Assembly (NCBI GenBank): GCA_028599035.1
Contig: JAQRMT010000003.1
Location: 1-36,176 of the forward strand
DNA length: 36,176 nt
Direction: 5' to 3'
Source of the DNA: Gammaproteobacteria bacterium
GTDB lineage: Bacteria > Pseudomonadota > Gammaproteobacteria > PS1 > Pseudothioglobaceae
In this document: positions 25,667-27,270 of the stretch, in pieces
Position numbering within the stretch: position 1 is the first letter of the stretch
How the letters are laid out: each line of letters opens with the position of its first letter
Translations under genes and position numbers: made by a program
Notes under the pieces: model-generated
Database searches by the model: none
Told to the model about the DNA's origin: nothing
The model's input: the letters and a program-made list of their open reading frames with translations, nothing else

Positions 25667-26047
25667 ATGCTCGCTAGACGCGAGCATTCTTATTTAGAGC
25701 TTACTAGAAAACTCTTGAACACTTACCCAGAAGACGAAATAGCGCAAGCACTAGAAAAACTCAAACAACAAAACTACCAGTCTGATAAGCGATTTTCCAA
25801 CGAATTTATTCAAATGCGTTTTAATCAGGGTAAAGGCCCAGTTAAGATAGCTATTGATTTAAAGCAACGAGGCATTGAACATTTTGATTTGTCTGAGTAT
25901 GATTTTTTTGCCTTAGCAAAAGAAATTAGAACATCAAAATATGGCAAAGAAGTCCCAAGTAATTACAAAGAAAAAGCCAAACAACAGCGTTTTTTGCAAT
26001 CTAGGGGGTTTGGATTTGATGAAATTAAGTTTTCTTTTGAGTCGTAA
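25667..26047 (+). CDS. recX: Regulatory protein RecX (true start may be upstream)
   Basis: ...LARREHSYLELTRKLL...DEIAQALEKLKQQNYQSDKRFSNEFIQMRFNQGKGPVKIAIDLKQRGI...; directly after recA. Confidence 0.9.
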   Translation: MLARREHSYLELTRKLLNTYPEDEIAQALEKLKQQNYQSDKRFSNEFIQMRFNQGKGPVKIAIDLKQRGIEHFDLSEYDFFALAKEIRTSKYGKEVPSNYKEKAKQQRFLQSRGFGFDEIKFSFES

Positions 26048-26109
26048 AAGAAAACGCCCATCAAAGATGGGCGTCGGGCCAAACGCATTTAAGTTTGTTT
26101 GGTGTGGTG
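26045..26109 (-). repeat. 65-nt repeat copy 1; candidate minus-strand small RNA or terminator element
   Basis: 64/65 identical to 26173-26237; contains 9-bp hairpin ACGCCCATC-AAA-GATGGGCGT that on the minus strand is followed by TTTTCTTTTA. Confidence 0.85.
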
Positions 26110-26115
26110 TAAGTA

Positions 26116-26145
26116 ATTATACATAAAAAAATAGTTCAATATGAA
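26116..26145 (-). promoter_or_regulatory. Candidate minus-strand promoter for repeat copy 1
   Basis: On the minus strand: TTCATA, 18-nt spacer, TATAAT; predicted +1 (about 26110) sits at the edge of the conserved unit. Confidence 0.4.
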
Positions 26146-26172
26146 CCCTTTTTTAGTAATATGAATATTCTT

Positions 26173-26237
26173 TAAAAGAAAACGCCCATCAGAGATGGGC
26201 GTCGGGCCAAACGCATTTAAGTTTGTTTGGTGTGGTG
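26173..26237 (-). repeat. 65-nt repeat copy 2
   Basis: Same 65-mer with a single A/G difference in the hairpin loop; 128 bp after copy 1. Confidence 0.85.
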
Positions 26238-26287
26238 CGAAGGATTGCACATCTTGATAGAAAAAAAATACACTAAGGTGAAAAAAC

Positions 26288-26896
26288 ATGAAAAATACAA
26301 CACATAGGGTCATTATTTATATTGATGGTTTTAATTTTTATTACGGTATTCGTTCACTTGGACAACAATACAAATGGCTTGATGTCGAGGCTTTATCACA
26401 AAGTTTTATTGAAAAAGACGAAGATTTGATTGCTGTTAAATTTTTTACTGCAAAATTAAATGGTAGAAATGAGGCGGCGGATAGGCAAAGTATTTATTGG
26501 GATGCACTTTCTAAACATTGTCCCAAGGTGCAAATTATTGAAGGTTATTTTGCTAAAGCAAGAAAGTGCAAGCATTGCGACAATAAAAATAATGAAGAAA
26601 AGCAAACCGATGTGAATATCGCTTGTGAGATTTTACAAGATTGTTATGAGGATAAATTTGATGTTGCTTATTTGGTGAGTGGTGACAGTGATTTAGTGAC
26701 ACCGATTAAAAAAGCGCTGTTATTGGGTGAAACCATCATTATTGCCAATCCACCCAATCGAAAAAGTATGGAATTAAGCGATAATGCAACTAGTTGCTTC
26801 GATATTAGTGAAAATCGTTTGCGTAAACATCAATTGCCAGAACAGATACCCACCAAACGCAACCCTTTAAAGCGACCAGAAAAATGGAAAAAATGA
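26288..26896 (+). CDS. NYN-domain (PIN-like/LabA-DUF88) putative RNase
   Basis: ...IIYIDGFNFYYGIR..., ...QTDVNIACEIL..., ...YLVSGDSDLVTPIKKA...: the acidic NYN motifs; extra CKHC. Confidence 0.85.
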   Translation: MKNTTHRVIIYIDGFNFYYGIRSLGQQYKWLDVEALSQSFIEKDEDLIAVKFFTAKLNGRNEAADRQSIYWDALSKHCPKVQIIEGYFAKARKCKHCDNKNNEEKQTDVNIACEILQDCYEDKFDVAYLVSGDSDLVTPIKKALLLGETIIIANPPNRKSMELSDNATSCFDISENRLRKHQLPEQIPTKRNPLKRPEKWKK

Positions 26897-27270
26897 ACAA
26901 AATATTTACTCTACATTCGCCGTTATATATTAAATATCCGAATGGAGAAACTCGGGTAATTGAGGAGATTTTTCAGCATCCAAAAGGGGTTTTGTATTTT
27001 GAATTGTTTTGGGAGAAAGACCCAGAATACAGCATTCATTTGATTAAAGGCAAGATTACGGGCGATGGACCTTGGCGAGTCGGTGAATGTAGTTTTCATG
27101 TATTGGGGTGTAATCATACGCATCCACAAATGTGTGAAATGCACAGTTTTTGGCAAAGCGAATTATTACAAAACTCTGGACAGTTCAGAAGTGGTGAAGT
27201 GGTAAAAATTGCCTTAGAAAAAGGCGCTATTTTGCCCGATGACTATCCAATAAACGACAAAAAATTTTAA
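26893..27270 (+). CDS. Hypothetical protein, Cys/His-rich (start MNKIF..., 4-nt overlap with the NYN gene)
   Basis: Continuous ORF; ATGA overlap with the NYN stop; contains ECSFHVLGCNHTHPQMCEMH. The ORF track starts 9 nt upstream at 26884. Confidence 0.8.
   Translation: MNKIFTLHSPLYIKYPNGETRVIEEIFQHPKGVLYFELFWEKDPEYSIHLIKGKITGDGPWRVGECSFHVLGCNHTHPQMCEMHSFWQSELLQNSGQFRSGEVVKIALEKGAILPDDYPINDKKF

Follow-up and report, generated by a model that had tools for sequence, protein, structure and literature searches.

The described systems that come closest to the locus reported here are the type III toxin-antitoxin modules (ToxIN, CptIN and TenpIN), in which a structured RNA gene lies 5' of an endoribonuclease gene, with a terminator between the two. 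Tandem RNA repeats, carriage on plasmids and linkage to defence candidates are further traits of these modules that recur among the loci described below. That a small RNA can neutralise an unrelated protein has been worked out for the AbiF RNA (RCd22; Rfam RF03085): it is a non-coding RNA with its own promoter and terminator, two repeated motifs and a position beside an Abi protein, and it neutralises that toxic protein via direct binding (PMC12373285). NYN ribonucleases, too, have been seen in a defence setting—the CRISPR-associated enzyme of Bacteroides fragilis cleaves single-stranded RNA in a Mn-dependent manner, although it operates within a type III CRISPR system on crRNA, with no dedicated small RNA gene (PMC11346440). 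Finally, PADLOC lists the NYN family HEC-09 as a single-gene defence candidate, and an RNA partner is absent from its description as far as we found. The space between HmaA and HmaB is a site where HEC genes are embedded, and several relatives of the gene considered here adjoin HmaA.

The window—the whole stretch of DNA that was analysed, 36,176 nt from a gammaproteobacterial contig—contains two near-identical repeats between recX and a gene encoding a clear HEC-09 member. Our analysis supports each repeat as the gene of a small RNA, about 62–65 nt long. We consider this RNA to be partnered with the NYN ribonuclease and most likely to serve as its antitoxin, acting like the RNA of type III toxin-antitoxin systems (probability about 0.58). 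The features are as follows.

26045–26109, minus strand: RNA gene copy 1, with its 5' end near 26109 and its U-rich tail over the recX stop codon (relatives and covariation)
26054–26074, minus strand: copy 1 terminator stem-loop, ACGCCCAUC-UUU-GAUGGGCGU, then the U-rich tail (fold and covariation)
26079–26102, minus strand: copy 1 hairpin 1, CCAAAC-loop-GUUUGG, whose loop AAACUUAAAUGC is unchanged in intact close relatives
26116–26145, minus strand: putative copy 1 promoter, TTCATA (26140–26145), 18-nt spacer and TATAAT (26116–26121), with a conserved -10 position
26173–26237, minus strand: RNA gene copy 2, with its 5' end near 26237 (sequence, genome search and fold)
26182–26202, minus strand: copy 2 terminator stem-loop (fold and covariation)
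26207–26230, minus strand: copy 2 hairpin 1 (fold)
26244–26249, minus strand: weak -10-like TGCAAT of copy 2, at the same distance from the hairpin as in copy 1
26288–26896, plus strand: NYN-domain ribonuclease gene, 202 aa, the divergent partner (PADLOC HEC-09, PDLC04163; NYN, PF01936)

An earlier, sequence-only reading had proposed a minus-strand small RNA from the two 65-nt units, and both are present as claimed, 128 bp apart from start to start and identical at 64 of 65 positions; the sole mismatch is an A/G difference in the terminator loop, and the flanks of the two units are unlike each other. A search of the 1.3-Mb genome returned these two copies only (98% identity). Three RNA copies occur in another genome (G449), so the duplication in the window is not unique. 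We agree that the edge of copy 1 coincides with the recX stop codon (26045–26047), which means that the U-rich tail of the RNA overlaps the stop. The proposed CCAAAC/GUUUGG hairpin stands, as does the terminator, with a stem of 10 bp; the TTCATA-N18-TATAAT promoter of copy 1 was likewise found. The minus-strand fold of either copy has an energy of -21.5 kcal/mol, against -9.9 and -9.7 kcal/mol for shuffled sequences (z = -4.5 and -4.8), with none of 200 shuffles equally stable, and the U-tract is a property of the minus strand only. Comparison with Rfam gave no family above its gathering threshold in the window; STnc100 and other terminator-bearing small RNAs showed a weak similarity (E = 0.013, 23 bits), STnc100 scoring far under its gathering score of 47.

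Intact relatives of the unit were found in the thiotrophic symbiont of Bathymodiolus brooksi (G003, locus L081), which belongs to the same genus as the window, and twice in a deep-sea gammaproteobacterial MAG of another genus in the same family (G094, loci L082 and L083). In these relatives the loop is invariant, and the stem CCAAAC/GUUUGG is replaced by CCAAGC/GCUUGG. From three sequences of Thioglobaceae we built a covariance model (R1), which retrieved further, diverged RNA copies; within the family, its matches below 33 bits were mostly ordinary terminators and not homologs. Two-sided changes affected 8 of 15 pairs among 11 divergent-form RNAs, including those from Thermus and Microbacterium, and the covariation score was 0.371 versus 0.139 for shuffles (0 of 500 as high) and 0.015–0.097 for slid controls—values biased in favour of the structure, to which the alignment had been fitted. 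Of 17 RNAs, nine have an exact TATAAT 12–14 nt 5' of the hairpin (0.4 expected), and the remaining eight have a box with one or two mismatches 12–16 nt away; a TATAAT is also present at the NYN-side copy of a broken relative (G002). The covarying 5' hairpin, the covarying terminator and the conserved -10 box—which keeps its distance despite diverged flanks—argue for small-RNA genes, as do G-U pairs that preserve terminator pairing on the minus strand only. The hallmarks of such a gene (a promoter, a structure with compensatory changes and an intrinsic terminator) are thus all present.

These observations also bear on whether the units are a mobile or structural repeat (REP/MITE or attC) or a mere terminator. 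Near-identical copies between diverged flanks would suit such an element, and attC-like elements are visible by eye 3' of recX in G002 and G007, but we regard the explanation as scarcely credible in view of the promoter, the covarying two-hairpin structure, the occurrence of two undispersed copies per genome and the absence of attC-like end-to-end pairing from the fold of the units. The REP/MITE alternative raised by the sequence-only reading fails for lack of dispersed copies. Its idea of a relic of a tRNA terminator fails as well: no tRNA was found near the units in the window or in relatives, hence the resemblance of copy 2 to a tRNA end is due to chance. When searched against phages and plasmids, the 65-mer gave chance matches only, mostly on the terminator.

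The interpretation as an RNA gene was therefore upheld, but its partner, the NYN ribonuclease gene, had been missed. The encoded protein matches the HEC-09 profile (PDLC04163) over its full length (E = 1.1e-62; residues 6–201 against positions 2–203 of 203) and keeps all the catalytic residues of the family, in which D13 and N16 are conserved in 39 of 39 NYN proteins and D108, D133 and D135 in 38 of 39. A phmmer search of the NYN protein against solved structures returned nothing, and an AlphaFold prediction from the single sequence had a pLDDT of 33.

Approached from the RNA side, R1 matches in two further contigs (G022:C84 and G096:C53) lie divergently just upstream of an NYN-domain gene, as in the window, and the model also detects the RNA at NYN genes on Thermus and Microbacterium plasmids. 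From the protein side, we collected HEC-09 genes, first within the family and class and also from plasmids and phage-like contigs, and read their upstream regions; the sources included Pseudomonadota, Thermus, Actinomycetota and Leptospira. Upstream of almost every gene we observed an unpaired C-rich leader (ACYACMCC, ACUACCCC or similar), a hairpin and a terminator. The RNA is divergent in the window clade, Thermus, Microbacterium and G290, most of which share GGCCCGACGCC; at most other loci RNA and NYN share a strand, and the terminator precedes the NYN start codon. An intrinsic terminator within 220 nt upstream was detected at 36 of 40 NYN loci and 46 of 240 control ORFs (Fisher p = 3e-18), and the leader-hairpin-terminator module at 27 of 40 and 18 of 240, respectively, with the NYN set including two near-duplicate pairs and the control rate raised by drawing ORFs from loci partly picked for terminator matches. 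In a held-out, phylum-wide set, the same script was positive at 11 of 18 loci (61%; p = 2e-4 versus controls), short of the preset threshold of 80%. With a second model (R2), which detects the RNA at three further loci, the count rises to 14 of 18; the RNA of another two was recognised by eye. At least five of the seven loci missed by the script have long or branched terminator loops (L176–L178, L182 and L194). Mapped on the NYN tree, RNA orientation changes three times, against 9.8 times with shuffled labels, with one discordant actinobacterial pair. Across 35 NYN loci, the Rfam scan (RF03085 included) gave no matching family; it hit only tRNAs and plasmid RNAI, at other places within these loci.

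Judged from sequence comparison, the small RNA is thus a well-supported candidate for a dedicated partner of the NYN ribonuclease. Could it instead be a trans-acting regulator of the usual kind, aimed at other mRNAs and adjacent to NYN by chance? The short C-rich leader recalls sRNAs that pair with ribosome-binding sites, and intact copies do exist without an NYN gene; still, linkage to one protein family recurs across several phyla, with the RNA in either orientation, which makes this account very improbable. Control of NYN expression, by attenuation at same-strand loci or by pairing with the NYN start region, also seems rather unlikely. The same-strand terminator does stand between promoter and NYN start, and in one of two tests the whole leader plus hairpin had a small pairing advantage on the cognate start region (p = 0.03), but the unpaired leader alone shows no cognate preference for the NYN start (p = 0.89). 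Moreover, at divergent loci, including the window, the RNA is transcribed away from NYN, so attenuation is impossible there.

To return to the antitoxin, computation establishes the gene anatomy, the covariation and the cross-phylum linkage to HEC-09 NYN genes; on the reading preferred here, the RNA would also be expressed and bind its neighbour's product. With its C-rich unpaired 5' leader, short hairpin and terminator, the folded RNA would bind the NYN enzyme and hold it inactive; loss of RNA supply, e.g., when a phage halts transcription in its host or a cell loses the plasmid, would free the ribonuclease. The module would then be an RNA-protein toxin-antitoxin system of type III-like action, but its enzyme is unrelated and its RNA genes have promoters of their own. 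This interpretation draws on the retained active-site residues, on RNAs that outlast NYN, on plasmid carriage and on a type III layout in Escherichia. Two genomes contain an NYN gene with an internal stop next to an apparently intact RNA (G264, L119, TAG; G261, L115, TGA), and in a third (G655, L181) NYN has an internal stop codon and the integrity of the RNA is uncertain. In G003, G094 (twice) and G312 an intact RNA stands where NYN is missing. NYN without a visible RNA is clear once (Paenarthrobacter) and doubtful in one or two more cases, perhaps G578. The NYN gene is present in 397 plasmid records, including very small mobilizable plasmids of 3.5–5.7 kb, and on one Escherichia plasmid (L142) four tandem hairpin repeats of 29–33 nt precede a terminator and then NYN—a type III layout as described previously (PMC5086642).

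Other observations weigh against an antitoxin. The intact RNAs of G003, G094 (two copies), G312, G421:C30 and G339 have no NYN gene within 1.5 kb or as far as the contig extends, and these may have another role; the held-out rate of the script, under its preset threshold, counts on this side too; in addition, recX loci without NYN have a broken RNA (G011 and G022:C47) or one split by an insertion (G002), and the RNA is mostly a single unit and no tandem array. There are also differences from the described systems. The enzyme, an NYN (PIN-like) protein, falls outside the ToxN, CptN and TenpN families as well as Abi_2/AbiF. Type III systems form one operon, an arrangement shared by the same-strand relatives, whereas the RNA of the window clade is divergent and has its own promoter and terminator; as for the tandem array of type III systems, the window has two whole genes and no array, the Escherichia locus has its four repeats, and most loci have one unit.

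The Hma context brings in a further explanation, in which RNA and NYN nuclease form a phage-defence complex and the RNA, as cofactor, guide or sensor, activates or directs the enzyme rather than inhibiting it. HEC-09 is itself a defence candidate found via its embedding in Hma systems; the RNA in G312 lies antisense between HmaA and HmaB, that of Thermus directly follows the HmaA helicase gene and precedes NYN, and an orphan Cas1f adjoins one RNA copy. The presence of the RNA in Hma operons therefore leaves room for a role in the defence operon itself. Nevertheless, the RNA has no variable guide-like segment, its loop and leader being conserved among close relatives, and an interrupted NYN beside an intact RNA suits an inhibitor better; we hold the cofactor or guide role to be unlikely. 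More broadly, it appears somewhat probable that HEC-09 NYN enzymes are RNA-protein machines with a phylum-spanning small-RNA family, sometimes within Hma operons, the RNA being a cofactor that controls an anti-phage nuclease or else an antitoxin of a class with no relation to ToxIN. A widespread, unexplained defence candidate (Klebsiella, Xanthomonas and E. coli plasmids) would thereby gain a second component that is invisible to annotation pipelines, and earlier protein-only tests of HEC-09 may have missed it. If the RNA is an antitoxin, it would define a further class of RNA-protein toxin-antitoxin systems, built on an unrelated ribonuclease. A literature search on small RNAs, toxin-antitoxin systems and phage defence in connection with NYN or HEC-09 revealed no such pair; the novelty is provisional, since preprints and most subscription journals lay outside its scope.

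The recX locus itself carries traces of a longer history. Unit remnants lie 3' of recX in G011, G002 and G022:C47, with no intact NYN gene after them, and in G002 the other RNA half sits beside an NYN stump about 4.8 kb away. This pattern fits an RNA-NYN module that was formerly placed after recX and then lost or broken several times. All three remnants are cut near CGCATTTAA, a conceivable attachment site, but their neighbours differ and one may be a deletion. A 128-aa protein encoded at 26884–27270 of the window, with no Pfam or PADLOC match, is retained beside the NYN stump in G002. Between the halves of the split RNA, G002 has a RelE-like toxin and antitoxin which, together with the attC-like elements noted above (L036 in G002, L040 in G007), suggest integron cassettes or a hot spot. 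A repeated element resembling a MITE or IS end (GAGACCTTTGCATAAATAGG...) occurs at L043, L040, L011 and L083 and abuts one RNA promoter, and the stand-alone Cas1 of subtype I-F lies at 2280–3269 of L083, directly beside the intact RNA copy and near the contig end.

We also noted variants of the NYN gene. In four loci—G000:C60 (L103), G022:C16 (L098), G007:C40 (L099) and G002:390840 (L100)—one reading frame joins a HEC-09 NYN domain to a D-alanine-D-alanine ligase domain; the ligase assignment comes from an NCBIfam match for L099, with which L098, L100 and L103 agree in length and C-terminus. Each fusion gene is accompanied by a divergent small RNA of a different type (GTTATCTGGGCAAAGTAA...). 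The third HEC-09-like NYN gene of G000 (G000:C86, L127) has a hairpin-terminator RNA upstream on the same strand. Finally, three plasmid records (H73, H76 and H136) name their NYN proteins 6-hydroxy-3-succinoylpyridine 3-monooxygenase HspA, an annotation that is probably wrong.
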